Below, in pieces: positions 14,238-40,654 of a stretch of 43,273 nucleotides of DNA. A model generated the notes under the pieces. The model was not told the origin of the DNA and did not search any database. It worked only from the letters and a program-made list of their open reading frames with translations. The translations under genes and the position numbers were made by a program. Location: the NCBI GenBank assembly GCA_017429765.1, contig JAFROJ010000009.1, positions 1 to 43,273 on the forward strand, given 5' to 3'. Origin of the DNA: Bacteroidales bacterium (GTDB taxonomy: Bacteria > Bacteroidota > Bacteroidia > Bacteroidales > UBA932). The stretch's first letter is position 1; the number at the start of each line of letters is the position of its first letter.

Positions 14238-14240
14238 GGC

Positions 14241-15760
<1,520 letters not shown>

Positions 15761-23218: not shown

Positions 23219-23235
23219 TTTTGTTCGTTTTATAT

Positions 23236-23265
23236 TAAAAAAAGGAGGACTCTCAAGCCCTCCCT
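23236..23265 (-). terminator. Rho-independent terminator after the 95-aa gene
   Basis: Minus strand: GGAGG - 10 nt - CCTCC followed by TTTTTTT. Position between the small gene's stop and asd fits. Confidence 0.65.
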
Positions 23266-23289
23266 ATAATGATCGTACAGGACGAGAGC

Positions 23290-23577
23290 TTATTCGGTCT
23301 CACCCGCTTTCTTAACCATTCCGCTGAGCTTGGCGTAAAGTTCATCCGTCTTCTCGAGGAGTTCCTGGCGGATAGCCGCGAAGTGGGCGCTCTTCTTCCC
23401 CTCGGGCTTCATGTTCACCTTGTCCTTGAGATCGTTGTAAAGGTCGACAGCCTCGTCCAGCAGTTCGCCGAGGGCCTCGTCGTCGGCCTTGGAATTGACT
23501 GAGCTGAAGAGTGAGCAATCATCGATAAACGCGCCGATCACATACTCAATGTCTTTCTTGATGTCACGAAGATTCAT
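23290..23577 (-). CDS. Small helical cytoplasmic protein of unknown function
   Basis: 95 residues, MNLRDIKKDIEYVIGAFIDD at the start, no signal peptide or membrane segment. Almost entirely predicted amphipathic helix, acidic and lysine-rich (DDEALGELLDEAVDLYNDLKDK), which suggests a helical bundle. It has its own promoter box and terminator, so it is probably a real monocistronic gene. I do not recognise a function. Confidence 0.75.
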   Translation of the reverse strand: MNLRDIKKDIEYVIGAFIDDCSLFSSVNSKADDEALGELLDEAVDLYNDLKDKVNMKPEGKKSAHFAAIRQELLEKTDELYAKLSGMVKKAGETE

Positions 23578-23600
23578 GTCTTACAGTTTTAATTTCTCCG

Positions 23601-23608
23601 CGAAGATA
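23601..23608 (-). promoter_or_regulatory. -7 box for the 95-aa gene
   Basis: Minus strand TATCTTCG, 23 nt before ATG 23577. Identical octamer to those at 26934 and 39227. Confidence 0.45.
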
Positions 23609-23630
23609 GCATTTTTTCTTGTAAATACCA

Positions 23631-24920
23631 TCAATCATGGATGAGCCGCCTCCCGGTTTTGTACAGGACGACACAGGAGGCTTTTGAGGAGAGACCCGCC
23701 TGGTTGACGTTCTCCACACAAATCCGGGCTCTCCTCCCTTTTCCCGGGACCGGCAGGGTGACTCTCATTCCGGGAGGATCCGCGGGATAGGTGTTGTCCC
23801 CGTTCAAATTGAAGGACTGGTATTCCCCTTCCCCGGGGACACGGGCGACAGCCGACCCGTCCAGGTAAACATTGAGACACGAGATCCCTGATTCGGGATC
23901 AGCCTCGCAGCGCCATGACACGACAAGCGAATCCCCCTCCATGACCGCCTTAATGTCATAAGGAGAAGGCGGGGCCGTCCTGTCAAGCACATCATTGGTC
24001 GCGGCATATTCCTTCCAGGCCCTGGCGGAGGACTCGTCCGGGAAACGGCATAGGCCTGATTTATCTCCCCGGTATCCTTTTTCCGGGAACACTTCGAAAG
24101 ACAGGGTGTCACCGAGCCAGGAGCGGGACGGATCCGTTTCCCTCATCCGTCCTCCATCCCTGGGGAGACGCTCGCGGATCGCGCTCTCGAAGAAGGGAAG
24201 CATCATATGGCGCAGACGTGAATAGTTATGCGTCTCTCCCTTGTTCTCGACTATCGAAACGGGAGCGTCCATGGCGCGGAGCTTGTCGAAGGCGCGCTTG
24301 GCCGTCTCCTTGCAGTCGGGATACTCATTACGGTCCGCGTAACGGAGAAGGACAGGCACAGCCGAGGAGGCCGGGGAATAATCCCACCGCGGATCGAAAG
24401 CCGCCGAATAGCAGACGGCGGCAAGGATCCGTTCCGGATATTCACGAAGCATGGCCAGGGTCCAATGCCCTCCTCCCGAATGTCCCCAGATAAGCCATGG
24501 AACTGTCGCGAGTTCAGGCCTTTCCGTTTCCCCGGCCGCCCTGGCTAGCGCTTTCATCAAAGCCTCGGCGCTTCCGGACTCGGGATATGTCCACACCCGG
24601 CAGTCCCCGTGGAGGGCGGTTTCCAGGATGGCCAGATTCCATTTCCTCGCGAAAGCCTGGTACTGGAGGTCATAAGGACGGGTGACGCCGAATTGTTCCA
24701 TGGTACAGCCATGCTGAAGGACGATGACACCTTTCAGGGGCTCTTCACCGCCAGGGATCCACAGTCCGTACTCGGCGCTGTCGGCGAAAGCGCAGGCTTC
24801 TCCTGCGAGGGTGTACCGCAGCGTCCTGTCCTGAGATGGTTCCGTCCGCGGGGAACCACACCCAAGAATGCAGAAGGGAAGCAGGACGGCTAATGACAGG
24901 CGGAACAATCTGGAATCCAT
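23631..24920 (-). CDS. Alpha/beta hydrolase lipoprotein with C-terminal beta-sandwich
   Basis: 429 residues, lipobox CILGC. Residues about 35-270 look like an alpha/beta hydrolase: GVIVLQHGCTMEQFG (oxyanion region), nucleophile elbow WGHSGGGH (Ser148), PVLLRYADRNEY (acid) and a late His in GETHNYSRLRH. The remaining 150 residues resemble a fibronectin-III-like fold (SWRCEADPESGISCLNVYLDG). The family includes esterases and deacetylases acting on glycans or polyesters. It begins 4 nt after the heparinase-like gene, so it may de-esterify the same polysaccharide. Substrate unknown. Confidence 0.72.
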   Translation of the reverse strand: MDSRLFRLSLAVLLPFCILGCGSPRTEPSQDRTLRYTLAGEACAFADSAEYGLWIPGGEEPLKGVIVLQHGCTMEQFGVTRPYDLQYQAFARKWNLAILETALHGDCRVWTYPESGSAEALMKALARAAGETERPELATVPWLIWGHSGGGHWTLAMLREYPERILAAVCYSAAFDPRWDYSPASSAVPVLLRYADRNEYPDCKETAKRAFDKLRAMDAPVSIVENKGETHNYSRLRHMMLPFFESAIRERLPRDGGRMRETDPSRSWLGDTLSFEVFPEKGYRGDKSGLCRFPDESSARAWKEYAATNDVLDRTAPPSPYDIKAVMEGDSLVVSWRCEADPESGISCLNVYLDGSAVARVPGEGEYQSFNLNGDNTYPADPPGMRVTLPVPGKGRRARICVENVNQAGLSSKASCVVLYKTGRRLIHD

Positions 24921-24924
24921 GATG

Positions 24925-26853
24925 TCACCTCACGGGTGAAATGGTGAATACGTAGGTGCCTTTTGTCGCCGCCACGCGCTCCCGCAGGGTGACCCGGTAG
25001 ATCTTGTCGCCCCAGACTCTCCGCAGAGGCGGATCGTCCTGGACGATGGTCTCGATAATCGGCTCAAGTCTCTTGCCGTCGTAGTTGAGAGTGACGGTCT
25101 CCCCCTGGACTGTGATGGTGACTTTGCCGGGAGTGGCGATGTCCACGTCTCCCCAGGTGAGCCAGTTGAAGTCAGCCGGTTTCTTTGACTCCGAGAGGAG
25201 GTAGCTGTCCTTGACGGTCACCTTCCCGTTCTTGAGCGTGACCTTCCTCAGCATGCTCTTGACACAAGCCTCCTCGGGATAGGTTCCGGCGAAGTCCACG
25301 GAGAATGTCATGGTCTTGGGGTCGAATGTGGACTGCTTGCTCTCGTGACTCCGCCCCTCTTTCTCGGGAATGCCGTTGAGCATGGGGACGTTATGATAGT
25401 TCGCCTGCATGCTCCAGATCTCATAGCGCTGGGGGCTGAATGTCTTTGTGATGTACGTCCCGACCCCGGCGTCGATCAGGAAGGGGATGGCCTTGTAGTA
25501 GAGAGACACCGTCCCGATGTCATTGTGGTTGTGGCTCTGGGCGTTGTGACCGCCTTTTGACGCCACGAAGAACCCGTCCTTCTCCCTCATGTAGCAGATC
25601 TGGGTCTCGGGGTACCAGGTGTAGGGCTCTGTCAACAACTCGGGAGTCTCTTTCTTGAGATCCTCCTTGACGAGAAGTGAATAGAACATTCGGATGATGA
25701 AACGGTCTCTCACGGCCGGAAGCGGCTTCCCGTCAAGCAGATACGCCGCGTAACGAGTCATCAGCGGGCTGTCGACACCCTTCCCGTAGTTGTAGATGAC
25801 GAGCGGGCTCCCGCCTCCGCGGGCGCTGGCGTCGGAGAAGTTGACCACCCAGCCGTTCCCGATCACCGAGCTGGTTATATATTCACCCATCCTCTTGATC
25901 ATCGGGTTGTCGAGCGCGTCTACCCCGCCTCCTGTGATCCACTTGAGGAAGAGGAGATACTCGAAATTCTTCGCCGGGCCCTGGTACCAATATGAAGGTC
26001 CCTCGTCGCAGCAACCGTCACCAGTGATGTTGTTGAGATATTTATCCACTGACTCCATCGTCATGTAGGTGGCCTTGGCGAATCGGTCCATGTCTTTCTC
26101 CAGGAGGGCGAACACCTGGAGGCAGTTCACATTGCACCAGGGCGTCCAGTTGTTGAGCTGGTCGGTCTGGGGATCGAACTTGTCGCCCTTCCAGCCGAAA
26201 TGGGTCTCGGTCAGGTAAGGGGTCATGATCCTTTTGTCAAGTTCCTCATAGAGGCGGCGGCTGATCTCAGGCTCGATCTTGTCGAACTCCTCGTGGAAGT
26301 AATAATAAACCCAAGCCAGGACAGAACCCACGTCCCCGCAGACAAGGTCGATGGCGTTATCGAACGACTGCGGGAAATAATGCTGGCTCTTCTGGAGATA
26401 CAGGTGATGGGAAAGGACCCAGGTGGTGGCCTCGCACATGGCGAAAACACCGTTCATCAGCTGGTCGATGTAACGTCCCTTCCCGTCCGCCAGCTCGGCG
26501 AAGAAGAGATCCACTATTCCCATCGAGTTGGAGTTGACGCTGGCCGCGGCGTCCCCTTGGGAACCTCCGCGGTAATATGTGAGGTAATCGGTCGCCGTGG
26601 TGACTTTCCACTCCTGGGCCAGGGCTTTCTCCCCGCGGGCGATGAACTCATCCTTCCATTCGCCCAGCAGCTCATCCCATCCCGCGCGGTCACTGTAGGC
26701 GGGGAAAGGGACCCATTTCTGGTCAGGAATAAGGAGAGTCTTCAGTTTAGCCTCGTCCGCCAGGGAGCGTAGGATGTCCCGCTCCTCGTAGGCTGACATG
26801 CTCACAGAGGGAAGCAGGGCTATCGCCAGAGTCAACAGCGCTATTCTTTTCAT
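24925..26853 (-). CDS. Exported heparinase II/III-family polysaccharide lyase-like protein
   Basis: 642 residues from ATG 26853, chosen because it starts the signal peptide MKRIALLTLAIALLPSVSMSA; in-frame codons upstream lie in the divergent promoter region. An (alpha/alpha) toroid N-terminal domain (LMNGVFAMCEATTWVLSHH, WTPWCNVNC, CCDEGPSYWYQ) is followed by the heparinase II/III beta-sandwich motif GGHNAQSHNHNDIGTVSLYY with its His residues. Family members cleave uronate-containing glycans such as heparan sulfate or alginate by beta-elimination. First gene of a two-gene operon with the alpha/beta hydrolase; divergent from GH43. Confidence 0.85.
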   Translation of the reverse strand: MKRIALLTLAIALLPSVSMSAYEERDILRSLADEAKLKTLLIPDQKWVPFPAYSDRAGWDELLGEWKDEFIARGEKALAQEWKVTTATDYLTYYRGGSQGDAAASVNSNSMGIVDLFFAELADGKGRYIDQLMNGVFAMCEATTWVLSHHLYLQKSQHYFPQSFDNAIDLVCGDVGSVLAWVYYYFHEEFDKIEPEISRRLYEELDKRIMTPYLTETHFGWKGDKFDPQTDQLNNWTPWCNVNCLQVFALLEKDMDRFAKATYMTMESVDKYLNNITGDGCCDEGPSYWYQGPAKNFEYLLFLKWITGGGVDALDNPMIKRMGEYITSSVIGNGWVVNFSDASARGGGSPLVIYNYGKGVDSPLMTRYAAYLLDGKPLPAVRDRFIIRMFYSLLVKEDLKKETPELLTEPYTWYPETQICYMREKDGFFVASKGGHNAQSHNHNDIGTVSLYYKAIPFLIDAGVGTYITKTFSPQRYEIWSMQANYHNVPMLNGIPEKEGRSHESKQSTFDPKTMTFSVDFAGTYPEEACVKSMLRKVTLKNGKVTVKDSYLLSESKKPADFNWLTWGDVDIATPGKVTITVQGETVTLNYDGKRLEPIIETIVQDDPPLRRVWGDKIYRVTLRERVAATKGTYVFTISPVR

Positions 26854-26933
26854 ATCACTAACTATTTGGGTTGTCTTGACGCGATTATAGTCATTTTTCA
26901 CGCATAATTCAGCCATGTCGGGAAAAGAATGTG

Positions 26934-26941
26934 TATCTTCG
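26934..26941 (+). promoter_or_regulatory. -7 box for the GH43 gene
   Basis: TATCTTCG ends 7 nt before ATG 26949, so the transcript is predicted to start almost at the start codon. Confidence 0.45.
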
Positions 26942-26948
26942 TGAGTAT

Positions 26949-27923
26949 ATGAAGAAATCATTGGTGATTATTGTTTTGATGGCGGCCTCGGCGTTGTTCC
27001 TCACTGATTGCGTCCGTGGGGCGGGATCCGCCGGTGGCGTGGAGATCGAGCGGTCCGGGCTTCCTGTCGCCGACCCTTTCATACTCAGTCACGGGGGCAA
27101 GTACTACGCCTACGGGACCGGCGAGCCGGGCTTCCGGGTCTATGTCTCTGAAGACCTGGTTCACTGGACCAAGAAGGGCATAGCGCTCGATCTCGACAAA
27201 TGCTGGGGGGCCAAGTGGTTCTGGGCTCCGGAAGTCTATCACATCGAGTCCAGAGGCCTTTTTTACATGTTCTACTCTGCTGAGGAGCACATCTGCGTGG
27301 CGACCTCCACCAGTCCTGAAGGGCCTTTCGTCCAGTCCGACAAGAGGCCTATCCGGGAAGAGCAAGGGATCGACACCTCCCTGTTCATTGACAAGGACGG
27401 GAAGGCGTATCTCTTTTTCGTCCGCTTCACCGCCGGGAACGTGATCTGGGTCGCGGAGATGAGCGACGACCTCAAGTCCATCAAGGAGGAGACCCTGACC
27501 GAATGCATCAGGGCCGAGGAGCCCTGGGAGACGATCATGGGGAAAGTCGTCGAGGGCCCGTCGGTTTTCAGGGACGGGGACACCTGCTATCTCCTCTATT
27601 CGGCCAACGATTACCAGAGCCAGGACTATGGTGTGGGATACGCGACCGCGCCTTCCCCTCTCGGCCCCTGGACGAGGTATAAGGGCAACCCCGTATTCAA
27701 GAGGGGCTTCCCGAATGCCGGGAATCTGGTGGGGATAGGCCATGGGGCCCCGCTGAGAACCCTTGACGGGAAGATGATGTACGTGTTCCACGCCCACCAG
27801 AACGACTCGACTATTCATCCGAGGCTCACATACATCAACAGCGAGTTGAAGATAGCCAAGGACGGGACATTGAGTATGCCCGGAAAGATAATCGTCCCGG
27901 AGCTGGACAAGACAGGATATTGA
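26949..27923 (+). CDS. GH43-family glycosidase lipoprotein
   Basis: 324 residues from ATG 26949; the signal peptide and lipobox (LFLTDC) fit this start, whereas six more upstream codons would overlap the promoter box. Five-bladed beta-propeller with the three GH43 acids: Asp42 in VADPFI (base), Asp142 in GIDTSLFID (pKa modulator) and Glu202 in VVEGPSVF (acid). WFWAPEVYH and GIGHGAP are also typical. It would remove arabinose, xylose or galactose residues. It has its own promoter just ahead of the surface-glycan operon and is divergent from the lyase. Confidence 0.9.
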   Translation: MKKSLVIIVLMAASALFLTDCVRGAGSAGGVEIERSGLPVADPFILSHGGKYYAYGTGEPGFRVYVSEDLVHWTKKGIALDLDKCWGAKWFWAPEVYHIESRGLFYMFYSAEEHICVATSTSPEGPFVQSDKRPIREEQGIDTSLFIDKDGKAYLFFVRFTAGNVIWVAEMSDDLKSIKEETLTECIRAEEPWETIMGKVVEGPSVFRDGDTCYLLYSANDYQSQDYGVGYATAPSPLGPWTRYKGNPVFKRGFPNAGNLVGIGHGAPLRTLDGKMMYVFHAHQNDSTIHPRLTYINSELKIAKDGTLSMPGKIIVPELDKTGY

Positions 27924-27953
27924 TATTGTCGACGCCAAGCCGTTGTTTTTTGC

Positions 27954-27961
27954 TATCTTTG
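27954..27961 (+). promoter_or_regulatory. -7 box for the Stealth-LicD operon
   Basis: TATCTTTG, exact TAnnTTTG match, ending 8 nt before ATG 27970. Predicted near-leaderless transcript covering six genes. Confidence 0.5.
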
Positions 27962-27969
27962 CCGTGTAA

Positions 27970-28848
27970 ATGGACGTTGTCATCACATATGTGAACGGAC
28001 TGGATCCCGTCTGGCGGGCCGAGTACGGGAAGTATGTCGGGGAATCCTTGCTGGAGAAGCGTTACAGGGACTGGGGGACGCTCAAGTACCTGCTGCGGGG
28101 TATTCAATCTTGCATCCCTTTCGTCCGGAACGTGTTCCTGGTGGTGTCCTCCGACTCCCAGGTACCCGAGTGGGCCGACCGGGGGAACCTCCACATCGTG
28201 ATTCACAGGGATATTATTCCCGAACGTTTCCTGCCGGTGTTCAGCAGCCCGGCGATAGAGGTGTTCCTGCACCGGATCCCTGGCCTGGACGAGGAGTTCC
28301 TGTACTTCAACGACGACATGTTCCCCCTGATGCCCTGTGATAGCGCGGATTTCTTCCGGGACGGCCGGGGGGTCATAGGAATGACACGGCACCTGTTGGC
28401 CGGGAATTTGTTCAAGAGACACTGCAAGGTGGCCTCAGACATGGCCCGTAAGGCTCTCGGGATGCCCAAGTCCCCGTTTTTTCTCAGACCCCAGCACATC
28501 TGCTCCCCCATGTCCCGGAGCCTTAGCGAGGAGGCGTACAAGAGTCTTGAGAATGAGATTCTATCGACCGTGACAAGGCTTCGCTCGCCGGAGAATATGA
28601 ATCAATACTACTATCTTGATTATATGTTCCTCAGCGGCAGGCTGATCCCGGAGCGCGTCTCCAACAAGCACATCTCGCTGGGAGTCTGGTCAGGAGCCAG
28701 GACCGCCGATTACATCCTCAACCCCAAAAGCAAGTTCGCCTGCGTCAACGATGTCGAGATGCCAAGCGACACATATCTCGAGAAACGCGGCGCCATCATC
28801 AAGGCTTTTGAGACACGTTTCCCCGACAAATCACGTTTCGAGCGATGA
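27970..28848 (+). CDS. Stealth-family sugar-phosphate transferase
   Basis: 292 residues, cytoplasmic. Stealth conserved regions in order: CR1 DVVITYVNGLDP (residues 2-13), CR2 RYRDWGTLKYLLRGI, RDIIPERFLPVFSS and HRIPGLDEEFLYFNDDMF, CR3/CR4 around LRPQHICSPMSRS and YLDYMFLSGRLIP. Stealth proteins transfer hexose-1-phosphate from a nucleotide sugar to make phosphodiester-linked glycans (capsules, and GlcNAc-phosphotransferase in animals). First gene of the operon; its stop overlaps the next start by ATGA. It would make or extend a phosphodiester-linked surface polysaccharide. Confidence 0.92.
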   Translation: MDVVITYVNGLDPVWRAEYGKYVGESLLEKRYRDWGTLKYLLRGIQSCIPFVRNVFLVVSSDSQVPEWADRGNLHIVIHRDIIPERFLPVFSSPAIEVFLHRIPGLDEEFLYFNDDMFPLMPCDSADFFRDGRGVIGMTRHLLAGNLFKRHCKVASDMARKALGMPKSPFFLRPQHICSPMSRSLSEEAYKSLENEILSTVTRLRSPENMNQYYYLDYMFLSGRLIPERVSNKHISLGVWSGARTADYILNPKSKFACVNDVEMPSDTYLEKRGAIIKAFETRFPDKSRFER

Positions 28849-29249
28849 GAAAGGTTCTTACTGTAGGCGTTTTCGATCTTCTGCACATCGGCCATGTCGA
28901 GCTATTCCGGCGGGCGAAAGCCCTTGGGGACTACCTGATCGTCGCCGTCCAGGACGATGAGTGGATCCTCAAGTTCAAGCCTGACGCCCAGACCGTGAAC
29001 AACACCGCGGAGCGGTGCTACATGGTCAAGGTCATCAAATATGTCGACGAGGTCGTGGTCTACAAGGACATCCAGTCCATCGTGAAAGAGGTCGACTTCG
29101 ACGTGCTCGTGACCGGCCCCGACCAGAATCACGAGGGCTTCGAGCGGGCCGTCCGGTGGTGCGAGGAGAACGGGAAAGAGACTGTGGTCCTGCCCCGCAC
29201 GGAGGGTATCTCGTCAAGTGAACTCAAACGGCATATCAAAGCGTTATGA
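28845..29249 (+). CDS. TagD-like cytidylyltransferase
   Basis: 134 residues, the usual length for glycerol-3-phosphate cytidylyltransferases. HIGH motif at residues 14-17 (VFDLLHIGH), conserved VVYKDI and RTEGISSS near the end. It would use CTP to activate a phospho-compound, such as glycerol-3-phosphate, ethanolamine phosphate or choline phosphate, to a CDP derivative. The adjacent LicD gene is a likely user of this donor. Joined to both neighbours by ATGA overlaps. Which phospho-alcohol it activates cannot be told; no choline kinase is visible nearby. Confidence 0.9.
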   Translation: MRKVLTVGVFDLLHIGHVELFRRAKALGDYLIVAVQDDEWILKFKPDAQTVNNTAERCYMVKVIKYVDEVVVYKDIQSIVKEVDFDVLVTGPDQNHEGFERAVRWCEENGKETVVLPRTEGISSSELKRHIKAL

Positions 29250-30040
29250 CAGAGATCCTCGACTCGGCCCAGATCAGACAGAGGCAGTTGGAAATGCTCG
29301 ACCGCTTCTGTGATTTCTGCGCCTCGAAAGGGTTAAACTATTCACTGAGCGGAGGTTCCCTTCTCGGGGCCGTCCGCCACAAGGGGTTCATCCCCTGGGA
29401 CGATGATGTGGACCTGATGATGCCCCGCCCCGATTACGAGCGCTTCCTCAGTTCATTCAACAGCGAGTCGGACCATTTCAAAGCCCTTAACTTCAGGGTG
29501 GACCCGGATTTCCCGAGGCCTTTCACCAAGATAACGGATCCGGGCACCAGGATAGTGGCCAGGAACGGGATCAGCAAATACGGGATATTCCTGGACCTCT
29601 TCCCCATCGACGGCCAGCCTGACAGCGAGGAGGAGACCGCAAGGTATGTGGCTGAATATGAGAGACTCAATCGGCTGTTCTACAAAAAGACTCCCTTGTA
29701 CAGGATGTCGGACAACCTTCTCGTGAAGGTGAAATCCGCCCTGCGCTCGCCGTTTTTCCCCCAGCGAGAGGAGACCATGGGCAAGATCGAGAGGCTGATC
29801 GGGGAATATCCTTTCGGCTCCACCGGTTTCGCCGGGGCCGTGATGGGAGGCTCCAGGATGGGGACACATGTCCCTGTCGGTGTTTTCAAGGAATTCACCC
29901 TCATGGAATTCGAGGGCCGGGAAGTCAGCTGCATAAAAGACTTCGACACCTATCTCACCCGCATGTACGGGGACTACATGACCCCGCCTCCCCCCAGGGA
30001 GCGGAGAACCGGTCATTTCGGAAAGGTCTACAGAGCATGA
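29246..30040 (+). CDS. LicD-family phosphotransferase
   Basis: 264 residues, cytoplasmic. Signature LSGGSLLGAVRHKGFIPW followed by DDDVDLMMPRPDYERF, then YGIFLDLFPIDG and a C-terminal YLTRMYGDYM. LicD proteins (nucleotidyltransferase fold) move phosphocholine or another phospho-group from a CDP donor onto a sugar of a surface glycan. The preceding cytidylyltransferase would supply CDP-X. ATGA overlaps on both sides imply stoichiometric production with its partners. Confidence 0.93.
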   Translation: MTEILDSAQIRQRQLEMLDRFCDFCASKGLNYSLSGGSLLGAVRHKGFIPWDDDVDLMMPRPDYERFLSSFNSESDHFKALNFRVDPDFPRPFTKITDPGTRIVARNGISKYGIFLDLFPIDGQPDSEEETARYVAEYERLNRLFYKKTPLYRMSDNLLVKVKSALRSPFFPQREETMGKIERLIGEYPFGSTGFAGAVMGGSRMGTHVPVGVFKEFTLMEFEGREVSCIKDFDTYLTRMYGDYMTPPPPRERRTGHFGKVYRA

Positions 30041-31131
30041 GGATCGCCTATTGCATACATTCCCTGAACCTCACCGGAGGCATGGAGAGAGTCCTGAGCG
30101 TCAAGGCATCGAGACTCGCCGAGGACTACGGGCATGAGGTGTTCATACTCTCCGCCTCGATGAAAGGCAGGAAGCCGGCCTTCCCCCTATCCCCGAAAGT
30201 CAAACTGGTCGATGTGGGTGTGAGTGACCGCTTCGGCCCTGGCGTGTTCCTCTCTTACGGGCGCGCTTTGCGCAAGGTCCTGAAACAGATATCCCCGGAC
30301 ATCACGGTGAGCCTGTGCGGGAACGATGTGTATTTTGTCCCGTCCTCGAGGGATGGAAGCGTCAAGCTGGCCGAGTTCCATTTCTCCCACGACAAGTTCT
30401 TTTTGAAATATGGCGACACCCCCTATGCCCGCCTGCGGACCAGGATGCTCGAGAACGCTCTAAGGAAGTTCCGGTCCCTGGTCGTGTTGACAGAGGCGGA
30501 CGCCAAGGCGTGGCGGGAGGTCCTGCCTTCTGTGGACCAGATCTATAACCCCCTGACCTTCCCTCTCGGGGAGCGCTCGCCTCTCACGGCCAAAAGGTTC
30601 ATGGCCGCCGGGAGGTTGGAGAGACAGAAGGATTACCCTTCCATGGTCCGGGCTTGGGAAAAAGTCGCCGCGAGACATCCGGACTGGAGTCTGGACATAT
30701 TCGGTGAAGGGCATCAGAAAGACGCTGTCCGGAGACTTATCTCATCCCGCGGGCTGGAGGGGAAGGTTCGCCTTATGGAACGCTCCTCAGACATTCGCTC
30801 CGAGATGCTGGACAGTTCCGGGCTGCTGTTGAGCTCACGGTTCGAAGGGTTCCCGATGGTGCTTCTGGAAGGCGCCGCCATGGGACTCCCGCTGGTCAGT
30901 TTCGACTGCCACCACGGGCCTTCCGAGATAGTCCGTACAGGTGAGACAGGAATATTGGTCCCCCCGGGCGACACGGATGCCCTGGCGGACGCCGTGATCC
31001 GGATCATCGAGGATGAGGAGCTGCGCCGGCGTCTCGGGGCCGGAGCCTACGCCAGGGCCGAGGCCTTCCTCCCGGAACGCGTTATGGATCAATGGAACAG
31101 CTTATTCGTTCACTATTCTTCAAAAGCATGA
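30037..31131 (+). CDS. GT4-family glycosyltransferase
   Basis: 364 residues, GT-B fold. N-terminal SLNLTGGMERVLS (acceptor side glycine loop), GRLERQKDYPSMVRAW at the start of the donor domain, SSRFEGFPMVLLEGAAMGLP with the two conserved Glu, and TGILVPPGDTDALADAV. It would add a sugar to a lipid-linked surface glycan on the cytoplasmic side. Overlaps LicD by ATGA and, unusually, the exported GH51 gene by ATGA. Donor sugar cannot be inferred. Confidence 0.93.
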   Translation: MRIAYCIHSLNLTGGMERVLSVKASRLAEDYGHEVFILSASMKGRKPAFPLSPKVKLVDVGVSDRFGPGVFLSYGRALRKVLKQISPDITVSLCGNDVYFVPSSRDGSVKLAEFHFSHDKFFLKYGDTPYARLRTRMLENALRKFRSLVVLTEADAKAWREVLPSVDQIYNPLTFPLGERSPLTAKRFMAAGRLERQKDYPSMVRAWEKVAARHPDWSLDIFGEGHQKDAVRRLISSRGLEGKVRLMERSSDIRSEMLDSSGLLLSSRFEGFPMVLLEGAAMGLPLVSFDCHHGPSEIVRTGETGILVPPGDTDALADAVIRIIEDEELRRRLGAGAYARAEAFLPERVMDQWNSLFVHYSSKA

Positions 31132-33029
31132 TAAAAAGACTTCTCATCGTCGCCCTCGGCTTGGTGTGCCTGCAAGGAGCGAGGGCGCAGACAATAGACA
31201 TCAAGGTCAACAAGGAGTATTCACCCTTCGTCTTCGGGCATAATCTCGAGCACACCAGGGCTGCCGTCAACACCGGGCTGAGCGCCCAGATGCTCCAGAA
31301 CCGCAAGTTCGCGGGCAAACCCTCGAAGAACCAGGGGGTCGCCGCCATGTGGTCTGGAATCGGCGGGAAGGTGTTTTTCCAGACCGGTAGTCCCGCTTAC
31401 ACCAGGCACATCTGCCTTCCGGACATGAGCCGGTGGAACGAGATCGCCGCCCAGTCAGTCCAGAACCTCGAGGAGGGGCAGGAGGCCGGAATCAGCCAGG
31501 GCGGGCTGTTCCTTAAGGGTGGAGAGGCCTACGAGATGCGGGTGGTGACCAAGGTCTCCGCCCGGCTGGACCTCAAGGTGGAACTGACTGACCGTGAAGG
31601 GAATAAGGTCTATTCCTCGAGGACCCTCTCGCTGGAGCCGTCAGAGGATTGGGTCGTCAGCGAGTTTGAGATGACGCCCTCAATGGGCGACAAGGAGGGA
31701 TCCGTGAGGTACACCTTCACGAGGAAGGCCGAGGTGGTCTTCGGCGCCCTATCGATGATGCCCAAGGACAATTTCCACGGGATGAGGCCGGATGTCGTGG
31801 CGAACCTCAAGGCCATCGGTCCCAGGCTCCTGCGCTGGCCGGGAGGCAATTTCGCGGGAGAGTACCGTTGGAAGGACGGGCTGCTCCCCTCAGACCAGAG
31901 GGGGCCGCTCCAAGCCGTCACCGAGATCGAGACCCAGCCCTATTCATTAGGCTACGACAACCACGAGATCGACACCGACGACTTCATAGCGCTCTGCCGG
32001 GAGGTGGGGGCCGAACCGATGCTGACAATCAACATCTCCTGGAACAGCCCCGAGGAGAGCGCCCAGTGGGTGGAGTATTGCAACGGGTCGGTTGACACTG
32101 AATATGGGAAGATCCGGGCCGAGAGGGGTCATGTGGAGCCTTACAACGTCAAGTTGTGGTCCCTCGGCAACGAGATCGGCTACCGGCACATGGAAGGCCC
32201 CGACGGGCCTTTGGCCTATTCCGAATATGCCGGGAGACACGCCGACGCAATGCTGAAGGTCTCCCCCGACCTGGAGTTCTGCTCCTCCGGGCCCTACCCC
32301 AACGACACCTGGGCGGAGAATTCGGCCGCCGTCCTGGCCGAAAAAGTGAGATACATCTCCCTCCATCACTACGCCGGGGGAAGCAGGAGATTCACGACGG
32401 AGGAGGACGTCAGGAAGTCTTACGAGGAGATCACGGGATCCTTCAAGGGCAATGTCGACATCGCCAAGAGGATGAGGGAGAGCCTCGACGCGACAGGGAA
32501 ACAGCTGCGGATATCCTTCGACGAGTGGAACCAGTGGTACTCATGGTACCGGCCCTCCTGCGTCGCCGAAGGGATCTATGCCGCCAGAACCATGCATTTC
32601 TACCTCAACGAGACCAACTCGCTGGACATCCCTATAGTCTGCTATTTCCAGCCTATAGGTGAAGGGGCGATATTGGTGACCCCCGAAGGAAGCTCGCTGA
32701 CCGCGAACGGGCAGGTGTTCGCCATGATGAAAGCCCACCAGGACGGCAGGATCTGCAAGGTCACTGACAATGAGGATTATTCCACGGCCGCCACCATCAA
32801 GGACGGGGTCGTGACTATCACGTTGATAAACGACTCCTACGATGAGGAACGGGTGTTCTCGTTCAAAATCAAAGGCAAACCTCTGGAGTCCAGGCTGCTC
32901 AGCTCCGATGATGTCACGCCCCACAGCCTGTTCCGGGAATCCCCCCTGGAGGTCAATGTCTCAAGGAAGGGAATCAGCGCCACCCTTCCTCCCCACAGCG
33001 CCGCGCTGATCCGGCTGAGGACACTATGA
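31128..33029 (+). CDS. Exported GH51 alpha-L-arabinofuranosidase
   Basis: 633 residues. The ATG at 31128 overlaps the GT4 stop and begins a signal peptide (MIKRLLIVALGLVCLQGARAQ). GH51 features: FGHNLEHTR, RWPGGNFAGEYRW, acid/base Glu349 in LWSLGNEIGYR and nucleophile Glu466 in SFDEWNQWY, plus a C-terminal beta-sandwich. It removes alpha-L-arabinofuranose in the periplasm. Coupled tightly to a glycosyltransferase and followed 10 nt later by GH92. Whether it acts on the operon's own polysaccharide or on dietary glycans is open. Confidence 0.93.
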   Translation: MIKRLLIVALGLVCLQGARAQTIDIKVNKEYSPFVFGHNLEHTRAAVNTGLSAQMLQNRKFAGKPSKNQGVAAMWSGIGGKVFFQTGSPAYTRHICLPDMSRWNEIAAQSVQNLEEGQEAGISQGGLFLKGGEAYEMRVVTKVSARLDLKVELTDREGNKVYSSRTLSLEPSEDWVVSEFEMTPSMGDKEGSVRYTFTRKAEVVFGALSMMPKDNFHGMRPDVVANLKAIGPRLLRWPGGNFAGEYRWKDGLLPSDQRGPLQAVTEIETQPYSLGYDNHEIDTDDFIALCREVGAEPMLTINISWNSPEESAQWVEYCNGSVDTEYGKIRAERGHVEPYNVKLWSLGNEIGYRHMEGPDGPLAYSEYAGRHADAMLKVSPDLEFCSSGPYPNDTWAENSAAVLAEKVRYISLHHYAGGSRRFTTEEDVRKSYEEITGSFKGNVDIAKRMRESLDATGKQLRISFDEWNQWYSWYRPSCVAEGIYAARTMHFYLNETNSLDIPIVCYFQPIGEGAILVTPEGSSLTANGQVFAMMKAHQDGRICKVTDNEDYSTAATIKDGVVTITLINDSYDEERVFSFKIKGKPLESRLLSSDDVTPHSLFRESPLEVNVSRKGISATLPPHSAALIRLRTL

Positions 33030-33039
33030 GGACACTAAT

Positions 33040-35370
33040 ATGAAGAAAGCCCCTCTGATCCTCATCCTCGCGGCCCTGATCGCGGCGTCCTGCGGGGTGA
33101 AAGCGCCCGAGAAGACACCCGCCGGCTATGTCAACCCCTTCATCGGCGCCAGCACCAGCGTCGACGCGGCCGGAGTGTACCACGGTCTTGGAAAGACCTT
33201 CCCCGGCGCCACCACGCCTTTCGGCATGGTGCAGGCCAGCCCCAACACCATAACCGGCGGAGACAACGGCTCCGGCTACAGTTATGAGATGAGCTCCATC
33301 GAGGGCTTCGACCTCACTCAGATGAGCGGAGTGGGCTGGTACGGCGACCTGGGCAATTTCCTCGTGATGCCGACGACCGGTCCCATCAAGACCATAGCGG
33401 GAAAGGAAGACGGCTCGATCGAGGGCTGGCGCTCGTCCTTCGACAAGGCGACCGAGACCGCCTCCCCGGGCTACTATTCCGTGGTTCTCGAGAATTATGA
33501 CATAAAAGTCGAGTGCTCGGCCACTCCCCATTGCGGGATATTCCGCTTCACCTGGCCGGAGAACCCGCTTTCAAGGATACAGGTGGATCTGGCCAGAAGG
33601 GTCGGGGGCACCTCAGAGGAGCAATATGTGATAGTCGTCGACGACCACACGATCGAGGGATGGATGCGTTGCACCCCCGAGACCGGAGGATGGGGGAACG
33701 GCGCCGGCAAGGCCCTGTACACCGTGTACTTCCACGCGGAGTTCGACCGTCCCTTCTCGACCAGGGGATTCTGGAGCGCCGACATCCCGGACGACTGGAT
33801 CCGCAAGAGGGAAGAGGTGGTGAGCCTCCCCTATCTCGAGAGGGTCGCCCAGGCCGACATCATCACCGAATCCAATGAGCTGAGAGGCAAGCACTTGGGC
33901 TTCTTCTCCGAGTTCCCCACGACCAAGGGGGAGGAGTCGGTCCTGAAAGTCGGGATATCATTCGTGGACATCGAGGGCGCAAGGAATAATTTCCTCTCGG
34001 AGATAGACACCAAGGATTTCGACACCGTACGCCAGGACGCCTGGAACCAGTGGAACCGGGAACTGTCCAAGGTGGCGGTCAAGGGCGGGACCGAGTCCGA
34101 GCTCACCGTGTTCTACACGGCCCTTTACCACACCTACATCGACCCCAGGCTCTACGCCGACTGTGACGGGCGCTATGTCGGGGGCGACTACAAGATCCAC
34201 GGTCCCGACCCTTCCTTCACGAAGAGGACCATATTCAGCGGATGGGACGTGTTCCGCAGCCAGATCCCCCTCCAGGCGATCATAAACCCCGACGTGGTGA
34301 ACGACCTCGTCTCCTCCCTGGTGACAATGGGAGAGGAGGGCGGCAAAGGTATTTTAGAGCGTTGGGAGTTCCTGAACTCAAACTCGGGATGCATGGTGGG
34401 CAATCCGGCGGCTATCGTGATCGCCGACGCCTACGTCAAAGGTATCAGGAACTTCAACGCGGCCAAGGCCCTCGAGCTGGCCGCGAACACCTCCGTCAAG
34501 ACAGGCAACTTCCCTCTCGGATGGACTCCCACATCCAACAGCATATCCGAGACTCTGGAATACGCCTACGCGGACTGGTGCATAGGGCGTCTCGCCGAGG
34601 CTATCGGGGAGAAGGCCGTGGCCGGGGAATATTATCAGAAAGCCCAGGCTTTCAGGAATATATTCGATCACGAGGTCGGATGGTTCAGGGCCAGAAAGGA
34701 AGACGGGTCATGGGGACGCTGGCCAGAGGGCGCCAGAACAATGGAGGGACTCGGATGCATCGAGAGCAACCCCTACCAGCAGGGATGGTTCGTGCCTCAT
34801 GATATTCCCGGAATGGTCGAGCTTATGGGCGGGACGGAGAAAGTCCTGGCTGACCTTAAGGAATTCTTCGCCAACACTCCGGACAACCTGCTCTGGAACC
34901 AGTATTACAACCACGCCAACGAGCCCGTCCATTTCGTGCCCTTCCTCTTCAACGAGCTTGGAGAGCCATGGAACACCCAGAAATGGACCCGCTTCATCTG
35001 CGGCCACGCCTATTCCGACGACCCGGCCACCGGACTCGTGGGCAATGACGACGCCGGCCAGATGTCGGCCTGGTACGTCCTCGCGGCCGCCGGCCTGCAC
35101 CCGGTCTGCCCAGGAGACACCAAGATGGAGATCACCAGCCCCGTGTTCGACGAGGTCCTGTTCACGACAGATCCCAAGTTCGCCTCAGGCAAGACCTTCA
35201 CTGTCAAGGCTAAAGGCAACAGCCCGGAGAACATCTACATCCAGTCCGCAAAGTTGAACGGCAAAAGGCTGGATGTCCCCCACATCGATTTCTCCGACAT
35301 CGCCGCCGGAGGTGTCCTTGAACTTAAAATGGGCCCCCGCCCCTCCGAGTGGGGGACAAAGGCTCAATAA
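33040..35370 (+). CDS. GH92 alpha-mannosidase lipoprotein
   Basis: 776 residues, lipobox IAASC. GH92 motifs: NPFIGASTS, GKTFPGATTPFGM, HANEPVH with Glu628, and GNDDAGQMSAW (Asp670-Asp671). Compared with the GH92 at 6433-9297 it lacks the C-terminal CHB_HEX_C and PA14 modules and differs at key positions (NEPVH for NEPSH, GNDDAG for GNEDCG), suggesting a different linkage preference. Last gene of the Stealth-LicD operon. Its 3' end overlaps the convergent deformylase-like gene by 7 nt. Confidence 0.93.
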   Translation: MKKAPLILILAALIAASCGVKAPEKTPAGYVNPFIGASTSVDAAGVYHGLGKTFPGATTPFGMVQASPNTITGGDNGSGYSYEMSSIEGFDLTQMSGVGWYGDLGNFLVMPTTGPIKTIAGKEDGSIEGWRSSFDKATETASPGYYSVVLENYDIKVECSATPHCGIFRFTWPENPLSRIQVDLARRVGGTSEEQYVIVVDDHTIEGWMRCTPETGGWGNGAGKALYTVYFHAEFDRPFSTRGFWSADIPDDWIRKREEVVSLPYLERVAQADIITESNELRGKHLGFFSEFPTTKGEESVLKVGISFVDIEGARNNFLSEIDTKDFDTVRQDAWNQWNRELSKVAVKGGTESELTVFYTALYHTYIDPRLYADCDGRYVGGDYKIHGPDPSFTKRTIFSGWDVFRSQIPLQAIINPDVVNDLVSSLVTMGEEGGKGILERWEFLNSNSGCMVGNPAAIVIADAYVKGIRNFNAAKALELAANTSVKTGNFPLGWTPTSNSISETLEYAYADWCIGRLAEAIGEKAVAGEYYQKAQAFRNIFDHEVGWFRARKEDGSWGRWPEGARTMEGLGCIESNPYQQGWFVPHDIPGMVELMGGTEKVLADLKEFFANTPDNLLWNQYYNHANEPVHFVPFLFNELGEPWNTQKWTRFICGHAYSDDPATGLVGNDDAGQMSAWYVLAAAGLHPVCPGDTKMEITSPVFDEVLFTTDPKFASGKTFTVKAKGNSPENIYIQSAKLNGKRLDVPHIDFSDIAAGGVLELKMGPRPSEWGTKAQ

Positions 35371-35975
35371 GAGTAAGCGGTGAGGGTGTCGGCCCTGTCG
35401 GTGTAGAGGATGCCGTCGAGGTGGTCTGTCTCGTGCTGGAAGATCACGGCGGTGAAACCCTCCACTGTGTCACGGACTGTCCGGAGGGTCGAGGCGTCCT
35501 TGTAGGAGATCACGACCTTAGTGTAGCGGGGAACCATTCCCCTGAGACCGGGCACCGAAAGGCAGCCCTCCGCTCCGGGGACGACATCTCCAGAGAGAGA
35601 CTCGATCCTGATGTTGGGATAGACCTCGAAAGGCTCCCCTTCCTTGTCGAAACGCTGGACCGCCACTATCCTGCGGGAAAGCCCGACCTGAGGGCCGGCT
35701 ATTCCCACTCCGTCCTGGGAAGGATCGGTCACGGTGGTGACCATCTTCCCGGCCAGAGCCTGGTAGCGCTTTGTCTTGAGATCCCTGTCAGAGAAATCCG
35801 CGCATGCCTTCCTCAGGAAAAGGGAGTCCTTGCGGTCGGCGATCGTGAGCACCCTCATCACCGGGCCGGAGCCGTCGATCAAGGCCTTCTCGGCCTTCGT
35901 GAGAGAGGAGCCACCGGTGCGGGAGCAACCGAGAGAAAGCGCCAATAGCGCCATTATCGCTAATGAATATCTCAT
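35364..35975 (-). CDS. Peptide deformylase homologue with lipoprotein signal
   Basis: 203 residues. All three deformylase motifs are intact: GVGIAGPQVG, EGCLSVPG (metal Cys) and QHETDHLDG (HExxH). The domain proper begins near residue 38 (PVMRVLTIAD); ahead of it is a clear lipoprotein signal MRYSLAIMALLALSLGC. Deformylases normally act in the cytoplasm on nascent formyl-Met, so an exported version is odd. An AGGAGG sequence lies 6 nt before the ATG (35980-35988), a rare good Shine-Dalgarno here, within the end of radA, which it overlaps by ATGA. It may process formylated peptides or deacylate another substrate in the periplasm. Confidence 0.85.
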   Translation of the reverse strand: MRYSLAIMALLALSLGCSRTGGSSLTKAEKALIDGSGPVMRVLTIADRKDSLFLRKACADFSDRDLKTKRYQALAGKMVTTVTDPSQDGVGIAGPQVGLSRRIVAVQRFDKEGEPFEVYPNIRIESLSGDVVPGAEGCLSVPGLRGMVPRYTKVVISYKDASTLRTVRDTVEGFTAVIFQHETDHLDGILYTDRADTLTAYSY

Positions 35976-37387
35976 ATTCCACCTCCTTGGAACAGGGCCC
36001 TGACCAAAGCGGGAACGTCCGCCACTTTAACTATCTCGATACCTTTCGTCCCGGCCTCGAAAGAGGTGAAAGACGATAGGAATATCTTCTTGAAACCGAG
36101 CCTCGCCGCCTCGGATATCCTCCTGTCCGCCTGGGCCACGGGACGGATCTCGCCGCTGAGGCCGATCTCCCCGGCGAAACAATAGTCGGACGGGACCGGG
36201 AAGTCGAAATTCGACGAGAGGACGGCCGACACCACGGCCATGTCGCAGGCGGGATCGCTGATCCTGAGGCCTCCGGCCATATTCAGGAACACATCTTTCT
36301 GGGCTAGCTTGAACCCTGCCCTTCTCTCGAGAACCGCGAGGAGCATATTCAGACGCCTCGTGTCGAATCCGGTCGCGGAACGCTGAGCCGTGCCGTAGAC
36401 AGCCGAGCTGACCAGGGCCTGGACCTCGAACAGGAAGGGCCTGGCGCCATCCAGCATGACGGCCACGGCGGCCCCGCTGAGACCTTCCTCATGCATGGGA
36501 ACCAGGAGCTCGGAAGGATTGGCGACCTGGCGTAGCCCCTTGCCGGTCATCTCGAAGACGGCCAGCTCGGAGGTCGAGCCGAAGCGGTTCTTGATGCTCC
36601 TCAGGATCCTGTAGGCCCCCTTGTTGTCGCCCTCGAACTGGAGCACCACATCCACGATGTGCTCCAGGATCTTGGGTCCGGCGATGGAGCCTTCCTTGGT
36701 GATATGCCCGATCAGGATGACGGGGATCCCGGTCTCCTTGGCGAAACGGAGAAGGATCGCTGCCACCTCCTTGATCTGGGACACCGATCCCGGAGTGGAG
36801 TCCACGGTCTCGGTGTACATCGTCTGGACGGAGTCGACAATCATCAGGTCAGGGTCAGTCTCACTGGCCTGTGAAATGATATTCTCGATCAGTGTCTCGC
36901 TGTAGATCACGCAGTTGGACGCGTCGCCGCCAAGCCTGTCGGCCCTCATCTTGACCTGTCTCTCGCTCTCCTCGCCTGTGACATAGAGGGTTTTCAGGGT
37001 GGGGCAACCGAGGGGGATCTGAAGGGAGAGGGTGGATTTGCCGATGCCGGGCTCTCCACCGATCAGCACGAGGGAGCCCTCGACTATCCCGCCGCCGAGA
37101 ATCCTGTCCACCTCCTCGTTGTGGAGGGAGACTCTGGCCTCGTTGGTGGAGTCGATCTCGGAGAGTCTACGGGGCGCCCTTCCCTCGCCGGGAACATATC
37201 CTCTCGCTCCTCTTCCGGCCCCTAAACCTTTTCCAGTCCCTGAACCCCTTCCGGTCCCTGAGCCAGTCGAAGGGCCTATTTTCTGCTCCGTCAGGGTGTT
37301 CCACTCCCCGCAGGCTGGGCAGCGGCCCATCCACTTTGGGTATTCATTTCCGCAATTGGAGCAGAACCATACTATCTTTTCTTTCAT
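35972..37387 (-). CDS. radA: DNA repair/recombination ATPase RadA
   Basis: 471 residues from ATG 37387; an in-frame TTG at 37396 is less likely. N-terminal C4 zinc finger (CSNCGNEYPKWMGRCPAC), RecA-like ATPase with Walker A GEPGIGKST, DLMIVDSVQT (Walker B region), RadA motif KNRFGSTSE and a C-terminal Lon-protease-like domain (FLNMAGGLRISDPACD, SGEIRPV). It promotes branch migration during recombination. Between the zinc finger and the ATPase (about residues 37-64) there is a Gly/Ser/Thr-rich stretch ([17 protein letters not shown]) encoded by antisense copies of repeat family A. Middle gene of the minus operon; starts 5 nt after the YfcE-like gene. Confidence 0.96.
   Translation of the reverse strand: MKEKIVWFCSNCGNEYPKWMGRCPACGEWNTLTEQKIGPSTGSGTGRGSGTGKGLGAGRGARGYVPGEGRAPRRLSEIDSTNEARVSLHNEEVDRILGGGIVEGSLVLIGGEPGIGKSTLSLQIPLGCPTLKTLYVTGEESERQVKMRADRLGGDASNCVIYSETLIENIISQASETDPDLMIVDSVQTMYTETVDSTPGSVSQIKEVAAILLRFAKETGIPVILIGHITKEGSIAGPKILEHIVDVVLQFEGDNKGAYRILRSIKNRFGSTSELAVFEMTGKGLRQVANPSELLVPMHEEGLSGAAVAVMLDGARPFLFEVQALVSSAVYGTAQRSATGFDTRRLNMLLAVLERRAGFKLAQKDVFLNMAGGLRISDPACDMAVVSAVLSSNFDFPVPSDYCFAGEIGLSGEIRPVAQADRRISEAARLGFKKIFLSSFTSFEAGTKGIEIVKVADVPALVRALFQGGGI
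37213..37278. repeat. Interspersed repeat family A inside radA
   Basis: Plus strand: TTCCGGTCCCTGAGCCAGTC + GAAGGGCC (37249-37276) preceded by two degenerate copies, TTTTCCAGTCCCTGAACCCC and TTCCGGCCCCTAAACC. Antisense to radA, still in frame. Confidence 0.75.
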
Positions 37388-39964: not shown

Positions 39965-40654
39965 ATGCATAAGAAAGACATAGACAAGGTTTTGGGAGAG
40001 GCCGTCCAGACCCTACGGGAAGGCGGTGTGATCCTTTATCCGACCGACACTGTCTGGGGACTCGGCTGCGACGCCACCAACCCGGAGGCTGTGTCGAGAA
40101 TATTCGGGATCAAGCGCCGGCCGGACAGCAAGTCGCTGGTTCTCCTGGCCAGCGACCTTGATCAGATAGCGCGATATGTCGCCGCGATCCCCCCGATGGC
40201 CATCGACCTCGTCGAGGTCAACGACAAGCCCATGACCATCATCTATCCCGGAGCCAAAACCTACCCTGCGCCGACTTCTCTGGTCCCTGCCTCGCCCCCG
40301 GTCCCTGTGGTTCGACAAGCTCACCAACCGGTCCCTGAGCCTGTCGAAGGGGCCAAAGCCGATAAGTACCATTTAGCGTGGAACGCCGTGGCCGACGACG
40401 GCACCGTCGGGATCAGGATCCCGATGATGGAGTTCTGCAGGAATATGGCCGGGAAACTCGGCAGGCCCGTGGTCTCCACCTCGGCGAATATCTCCGGCCA
40501 ACCGACCCCTAGGATATTCAAGGACATCCCCGAGGAGATCAAGGCTGCCGTTGACTACATCGTCGATCCCCGCCTCGAGGCCGGGGCCACCGGTGAGGCG
40601 TCCCAGATCATTAAGATAGGCCTGCGAGGAGAGGTTGAGATAATAAGGCCATGA
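39965..40654 (+). CDS. tsaC: Threonylcarbamoyl-AMP synthase (Sua5/YwlC/TsaC family)
   Basis: 229 residues. Motifs LREGGVILYPTDTVWGLGCDA, IKRRPDSKSLVLL, PMTIIYPG and PVVSTSANISGQPTP. It makes threonylcarbamoyl-AMP for the t6A37 modification of tRNA. The stretch from about Val107 to Gly129 ([18 protein letters not shown]) comes from repeat family A and explains a length beyond the usual 185-210; it falls between the substrate loop and DGTVGIRIP, where loops vary. Overlaps the CotH-like gene by ATGA. Activity with the insertion is expected but untested. Confidence 0.93.
   Translation: MHKKDIDKVLGEAVQTLREGGVILYPTDTVWGLGCDATNPEAVSRIFGIKRRPDSKSLVLLASDLDQIARYVAAIPPMAIDLVEVNDKPMTIIYPGAKTYPAPTSLVPASPPVPVVRQAHQPVPEPVEGAKADKYHLAWNAVADDGTVGIRIPMMEFCRNMAGKLGRPVVSTSANISGQPTPRIFKDIPEEIKAAVDYIVDPRLEAGATGEASQIIKIGLRGEVEIIRP
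40283..40355. repeat. Composite interspersed repeat A inside tsaC
   Basis: GGTCCCTGTGGTTCGACAAG, CTCACCAACC, then GGTCCCTGAGCCTGTCGAAG and GGGCC. In frame and in the same orientation and reading frame as the copy in the NagX-like gene. Confidence 0.8.

Follow-up and report, generated by a model that had tools for sequence, protein, structure and literature searches.

When genes that build a glycan overlap end to end with genes for exported enzymes that cut glycans, do all of them serve one pathway? The question is raised by a stretch of 43,273 nucleotides from a Bacteroidales bacterium (contig JAFROJ010000009.1, positions 1 to 43,273 of the forward strand), which was analysed as a whole and is termed the window here. 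An initial annotation had read six of its genes, between 27970 and 35370, as a coupled operon that joins synthesis of a phosphodiester glycan to exported glycosidases. We have compared these genes with protein families, solved structures and related genomes, and consider it rather probable that two unrelated modules share one transcript, with the glycan cassette lying upstream of the GH51 gene by position and not as part of a combined pathway. The comparisons suggest that a functional link between the two modules is lacking. Relatives are named by handles, G for genomes and L for loci, and the features concerned are the following.

23296..23577, minus strand: left border of the variable interval, a small conserved gene beside asd (tblastn with the G387 gene, 87%)
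26949..27923, plus strand: GH43-family glycosidase, exported or lipoprotein-like by eye (PF04616, E 8.8e-52)
27954..27961, plus strand: TATCTTTG, an element like the Bacteroidetes -7 element, 8 nt 5' of the Stealth ATG
27970..28848, plus strand: Stealth-type sugar-phosphate transferase (PF11380 CR2, E 9.1e-30; CpsY 8j2n, E 7e-25)
28845..29249, plus strand: TagD-like cytidylyltransferase (PF01467, E 1.1e-19; 1coz, E 1.4e-21; RTEGIS aligned)
29246..30040, plus strand: LicD-family phosphotransferase (PF04991, E 1.4e-46; FKRP 6kaj, E 1.4e-5 over one motif)
30037..31131, plus strand: GT4 glycosyltransferase (PF00534, E 4.8e-35)
31128..33029, plus strand: GH51-type alpha-L-arabinofuranosidase, signal-like N-terminus by eye (3s2c, E 1.4e-41)
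33040..35370, plus strand: GH92 alpha-mannosidase-type enzyme, lipobox-like N-terminus by eye (PF07971, E 4.4e-145; 6f8z, E 1.2e-113)
35364..35975, minus strand: right border, a peptide deformylase-like gene convergent with the GH92 gene (PF01327; orthologous neighbor in relatives)

All six open reading frames (ORFs) of the row are found on the plus strand within 27970-35370, with families as annotated. Their coordinates and family matches bear out 4-nt ATGA overlaps at the Stealth/TagD, TagD/LicD, LicD/GT4 and GT4/GH51 junctions and a gap of 10 nt between the GH51 and GH92 genes. The fourth overlap follows from the start assigned to GH51: the ORF is listed from 31092, and translation probably begins at an internal ATG, at 31128 (MIKRLLIVALG...), which was judged by eye from a signal-peptide-like N-terminus and matches the start of the orthologue in G387, the closest relative found. 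The annotation had the six genes right but omitted a same-strand GH43 gene 46 nt upstream, so that the row is not begun by Stealth. Given such tight packing, the six genes are probably co-transcribed from Stealth to GH92. As to a promoter, TAnnTTTG is given as the -7 consensus of Bacteroides fragilis in the relevant passages of PMC7366714, and no TTG is found 17-23 nt upstream of TATCTTTG. Terminators were considered and rejected: 26800-35500 has 7 terminator-like sites where 7.1 would be expected, and the GH43/Stealth gap contains one of them, at 27930-27945.

Tight packing and the 4-nt GT4/GH51 overlap speak for one integrated pathway, with four transferases that build a glycan and with GH51 and GH92 to cut back its arabinose and mannose branches. 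We regard this pathway as unlikely, and the window itself already argues against it, since 4-nt overlaps link unrelated genes here as well. By a hand-made gene list of the window such overlaps occur in 9 of 24 co-directional neighbor pairs, that is, in 4 of 5 inside the row and 5 of 19 outside it. Four of the five outside the row are likewise ATGA, including Sua5/CotH and Def/RadA, pairs with no obvious functional link, and the fifth (RadA/metallophosphoesterase) holds only if a questionable TTG is the true start. The row's overlaps are real and denser than elsewhere, yet in this genome they are no marker of functional kinship.

The same locus in G387 separates the two modules. There a single contig carries, in this order, asd, the small gene, a gene whose product is a PAP2 phosphatase by family search, then after 6 nt GH51, and further on the deformylase gene and RadA. 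The G387 GH51 is 84% identical to that of the window and sits at the same locus, with collinear flanks on both sides, while none of Stealth, TagD, LicD, GT4, GH43 and GH92 is found between the G387 borders. The interval from the asd-side small gene to the deformylase gene (23577-35367 in the window) measures 11.8 kb in the window and 2.9 kb in G387. When five neighboring proteins of 10 genomes are concatenated, the resulting tree unites G387 and the window's genome at 100% ultrafast bootstrap. The G387 assembly is 83% complete; it holds a Stealth relative (56%) elsewhere, and no LicD match at 1e-50. Separation of glycosidases and transferases in close relatives had been named beforehand as the finding that would refute their union, and it is what we observe, in G387 and also in G170 and G301, where relatives of GH51, GH92 and LicD lie on three different contigs each. 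As G387 has this GH51 but no cassette beside it, and as no conserved linkage was found, the claim that the transferases are joined to GH51 and GH92 as one system is not supported. The simplest history is probably that GH51 was already in place in the common ancestor of G387 and the window's genome, if the direction of the changes is as we suppose.

Within the genus this interval varies. Among 20 loci around deformylase relatives, six (G176, G033, G096, G213, G066, G017) carry the two border genes in the same order as the window, at a distance of 5.5 to 12.2 kb, and between the borders of these six no match to GH51, GH92 or the four transferases was found. In G423 and G114 both border genes stand on one contig in another order, and the remaining 12 of the 20 loci do not show both. 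The window's gene at 24925-26853 has a weak Hepar_II_III_C match (24.2 bits against a cut-off of 24) and has relatives of 84% identity close to the deformylase gene in G017, G236 and G321; part of the window's interval is therefore older.

Both glycosidases belong to their families. For GH51, the glutamates of GNE and DEWN are aligned with 3s2c and Pfam ASD1_dom scores 30.5 bits against 22.2, while the equivalog NF051901 is missed by far (142.5 against 625). For GH92, PF07971 scores 484.7 bits, PF17678 226.6 bits and TIGR01180 557.5 against 249.55, and the motifs NEP..H and GNDD.GQMSAWY are aligned to 6f8z. The aligned residues of both enzymes we take to be catalytic. Where such genes lie was surveyed in 400 genomes of the same genus, an even sample of a larger group; many of them are fragmented. 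Relatives of GH51 (E <= 1e-60) are carried by 19 of the 400, of GH92 (E <= 1e-150, identities from 45%) by 40 and of LicD (E <= 1e-50) by 19. By tblastn, no match to Stealth, TagD, LicD, GT4 or GH92 appears around the GH51 relatives of 16 of the 18 other carriers (G236 and G321 were left out, and the G170 contig has only 4 kb). In the 11 other genomes that hold both GH51 and GH92, the two are always on different contigs. Apart from G012, the surroundings of GH92 were viewed at 13 loci, in 10 of these 11 dual carriers (G218 left out) and in G375, G168 and G096. A gene for an acetyl-CoA hydrolase/transferase adjoins GH92 in seven of them and is one gene away in three, and the contig ends at GH92 in the other three; its family was confirmed in G423 and G096 and recognised by eye elsewhere. 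The window's own genome contains 19 GH92 matches. Relatives of the GH43 gene (61-67%) occur in G168, G176 and G306, with a partial one in G387, and no cassette matches lie around them.

Of the 18 other GH51 carriers 16 have no LicD match at 1e-50, and of the 39 other GH92 carriers 36 have none, which argues that the glycosidases are independent of this LicD and speaks against the integrated pathway, as does the finding that its named parts occur together in no other genome examined. The predicted co-occurrence of the six families in related genomes was not found in any of the GH51, GH92 or cassette loci examined. The joining of GT4, GH51 and GH92, seen in this genome only, is most likely positional. 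We also know of no hydrolase of synthesis operons that is of GH51 or GH92 type.

The cassette itself recurs. Five other genomes hold a LicD of at least 66% identity (G170, G198, G123, G301, G375), and it is embedded in Stealth-LicD-GT4 in G170, in TagD-LicD-GT4 in G301 and G375, and in Stealth-LicD-GT4 with an opposite-strand TagD gene in G198 and G123. Where the genes are adjacent, ATGA overlaps recur as well, at LicD/GT4 in 5 of 5, at Stealth/LicD in 3 of 3 and at TagD/LicD in 2 of 2. No GH51 or GH92 lies within the visible flanks of these five LicD relatives, and in all four cassette loci that show the 3' side of GT4 the neighbor there is convergent and no glycosidase. A survey of Stealth relatives gives a similar picture. 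It covered 80 loci among 113 confirmed relatives, 44 of them with 5 kb on both sides, and counted relatives of the window's own proteins, not other glycosidase families. LicD is found up to 5 kb from the Stealth match in 22 loci, TagD in 12, GT4 in 11 and a further Stealth in 23, compared with GH92 in one (L006) and GH51 in one (L026, 24%). Stealth and LicD recur together, and GH51 or GH92 relatives beside Stealth are rare. In L006, two GH92-type genes (6517-8646 and 13232-15484) flank the Stealth gene on the opposite strand and share 28 and 32% identity with GH92 of the window.

Some neighbors of the cassette genes in relatives give hints on their role. TagD relatives in G170 and G423 (56% and 60%) have Wzx-type genes one gene away, which fits a surface glycan, and a GDPD-domain gene directly 5' of Stealth in G198 and G123 would fit a supply of glycerol-phosphate. 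In G375, a partial APH-family kinase gene (L210:1-456, 151 residues on the contig) is convergent to the GT4 of TagD-LicD-GT4 and might encode a LicA-like kinase. Twenty proteins of the relatives were family-searched, and many gene names there (transporter, tricorn-like, MazG, PrfA, UvrA, Wzy) were read by eye from N-termini. In the literature searched, we found no description of a compact Stealth/TagD-like/LicD/GT4 cassette of uncultured gut Bacteroidales, and no paper that combines the terms LicD, Stealth, cytidylyltransferase and Bacteroid-.

The families of the four transferases were assigned by Pfam and NCBIfam profiles, with 28 proteins, a part of the window's genes, scanned against Pfam. 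Pfam calls the row as Stealth, CTP_transf_like, LicD, GT4, an alpha-L-arabinofuranosidase domain and GH92, and the comparison with solved structures, which covered Stealth, TagD-like, LicD, GH51 and GH92, that is, five of the six proteins, agrees with it. Stealth CR2 scores 103.5 bits against a cut-off of 39.4, CR1 and CR4 are detected below threshold (23.4 against 27.2 and 20.7 against 27.4), and CR3 is unreported. Among solved structures the protein matches CpsY and GNPTAB, and it aligns with CpsY (8j2n) over residues 2-291 of 292. The LicD protein clearly belongs to its family (PF04991, 159.8 bits against 22.6, profile 1-227 of 227); its nucleotidyltransferase-type motif is identical across three aligned relatives, and of the solved structures it is fukutin-related protein (FKRP, 6kaj) that is matched, over one motif. 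The TagD-like enzyme has HxGH-type and RTEGIS motifs and finds its best solved structure in the glycerol-3-phosphate cytidylyltransferase 1coz. Against the heptose-1-phosphate adenylyltransferase domain (TIGR02199) it scores 83.9, with a cut-off of 181.5. It is nearest to glycerol-3-phosphate and ethanolamine-phosphate enzymes, and matches to choline-phosphate enzymes are weak (E ~2e-7 to 9e-7). Phosphocholine decoration as first choice was ruled out on these matches, and the phosphocholine substituent that had been considered is disfavored. The four genes nevertheless stand as a plausible kit for a phosphodiester glycan, as had been proposed, and its members recur together in relatives.

On these grounds the first module (27970-31131) may be seen as a portable surface-glycan cassette. 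The TagD-like enzyme would make a CDP derivative of a polyol or amino-alcohol, with CDP-glycerol as the likeliest product, and LicD would transfer the phospho-alcohol from the CDP donor onto a sugar acceptor. Stealth would transfer a sugar-1-phosphate and GT4 would add a sugar, so that a glycan with phosphodiester links could arise, probably a polyol-phosphate-bearing one. The lipid carrier, flippase and polymerase would be encoded elsewhere. The second module would consist of GH51 and GH92 as exported exo-glycosidases that act on arabinofuranosides and alpha-mannosides; they are probably ordinary scavengers. The cassette might have arrived directly upstream of a GH51 gene that was probably already resident between the asd-side gene and the deformylase gene. 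The transferases would thereby have taken the place held by PAP2 in G387, with a 4-nt overlap between GT4 and GH51, and GH92, whose relatives sit elsewhere, would have come between GH51 and the deformylase gene.

Several observations weigh against two unrelated modules. Among the five other genomes with a LicD of at least 66%, GH51 is present in two (base 18 of 399) and GH92 in three (base 39 of 399), counts uncorrected for ancestry; shared ancestry may explain this mild co-occurrence of parts in G170, G301 and G375, which would otherwise favor the integrated pathway. Since the genomes are fragmented, a different contig is weaker evidence than a large distance, and of the cassette loci L207 and L210 are shorter than 4 kb, and in L209 the contig ends within GT4. 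In G170 the cassette stands behind a same-strand SASA esterase gene and a LolA-like gene, and GH95 and a second SASA gene lie on the other strand beyond a convergent oxidoreductase gene. The cassette can thus adjoin exported glycan-active enzymes in a second genome, again a point for the integrated pathway. We read these G170 neighbors as background, because they belong to other families than the window's enzymes and genes of this sort are frequent in these genomes. The TagD-like enzyme falls short of the glycerol-3-phosphate cytidylyltransferase equivalog (TIGR01518, 80.3 against 165.4 bits). The lineage of G387 may also have lost the cassette, as only two genomes are compared, and selection could favor co-transcription of six genes packed so closely. 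Selection might itself have favored the capture of a resident GH51 and a relocated GH92 behind GT4, with an overlap that couples translation; such a recent operon fusion, in which exported exo-glycosidases made in fixed proportion to the glycan kit tailor the cell's own surface glycan, strikes us as improbable.

Alternatively, the locus could serve to break down an external glycan, phosphorylated or rich in arabinose and mannose; GH43, GH51, GH92 and the Hepar_II_III-type protein would then be the cutters, and the transferases would only be carried along. The GH43 gene and the Hepar_II_III_C-domain gene, the latter with its relatives near the deformylase gene, do adjoin the row, but the 28 window proteins scanned include no SusC/SusD or TonB-type hit and relatives have the cutters at different places, so that we hold such a locus to be quite unlikely. 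An assembly chimera is a very improbable source of the junctions. In its favor, the assembly has 75 contigs and neither the GT4/GH51 nor the GH51/GH92 junction turned up in a second genome; against it, gene order matches that of G387 on either flank, no ORF is broken at a junction, and GC is uniform, with 0.564-0.600 for the genes from Stealth to GH92 and 0.586 for the whole window. Foreign origin by composition was rejected, as the cassette's GC of 0.564-0.594 and GC3 of 0.742-0.785 are not conspicuous beside the window's other genes. Borders of a mobile element were rejected too: the only direct repeat in 22900-36200 is 21 nt long and 86% identical, its first copy falling within GH51 and its second within GH92, and inverted repeats are absent at the lengths searched.

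Elsewhere in the window, a 15-base interspersed repeat, TTCGACAGGCTCAGG, has 11 sites at up to 3 mismatches, where 1.95 are expected. Its sites include 1125, 37257, 38390 and 40311-40348, inside GDPD, RadA, HGSNAT-like and Sua5-like ORFs; it adds in-frame peptide in the HGSNAT-like and Sua5-like genes, and two half-sites are inverted near 40311-40348. Exact copies are present in only 3 of 329 fetched loci. The GDPD protein (249-1982) has an N-terminal endonuclease/exonuclease/phosphatase domain, and the gene at 4482-6416 encodes a 644-residue protein with an alkaline phosphatase domain from residue 314.

The locus is a clean example that tight packing and ATGA overlaps alone do not show a shared pathway, because a relative with the same flanks has GH51 without the transferases. 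What remains useful is the compact Stealth/TagD-like/LicD/GT4 cassette that recurs in uncultured gut Bacteroidales, and its place among known systems can be given from the 28 window proteins scanned. As had been annotated, no Wzx/Wzy or choline kinase is among them. They include no SusC/SusD pair by Pfam, as a polysaccharide utilization locus would have, and no flippase, polymerase or ABC exporter, as a complete capsule or O-antigen locus would have; an OstA/LptD-type LPS-transport protein is encoded at 9404-11983, ~16 kb from the row. The lic phosphocholine operons, LicA/B/C/D, combine a cytidylyltransferase with a LicD transferase. The window has these two as well, and is set apart from the lic operons by the lack of an APH/choline-kinase-type hit among the scanned proteins, where the ROK and CotH-kinase-domain proteins are of families other than choline kinase, and by the weak choline-type match of its cytidylyltransferase.

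Hydrolases in polysaccharide-synthesis systems are known, and this favors the integrated pathway: PelA trims Pel (PMC9894940), and a functional link is reported for this glycosidase encoded with the synthesis machinery. Unlike in the PelA system, the linkage in the window is absent even in the closest relative found. Commensal streptococcal capsule loci hold Stealth and LicD proteins, in different strains, according to parts of PMC5111408. The O-antigen locus of Haemophilus parainfluenzae strain 20 shares with the window a Stealth protein as sugar-phosphate transferase of a surface glycan, involved there in a phosphate link of the O-antigen; LicD is named nowhere in the text of PMC3989065, and its relevant passages note no TagD-like enzyme or glycosidase. 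The capsule loci of Actinobacillus pleuropneumoniae, as far as the relevant sections of PMC11666461 and PMC5974469 describe them, have TagF/TagB-family transferases and group 2 capsule export where the window has Stealth and GT4, and they differ further by the exporter that is missing among the scanned window proteins. What they share with the window is a cytidylyltransferase together with a LicD-family protein, CDP-polyol donors and a phosphodiester polymer, the last two being predicted for the window. In these loci a glycerol-3-phosphate cytidylyltransferase supplies the system in which CpsC, a member of the LicD family, acts as polyol-phosphate polymerase (in the same sections of PMC11666461).

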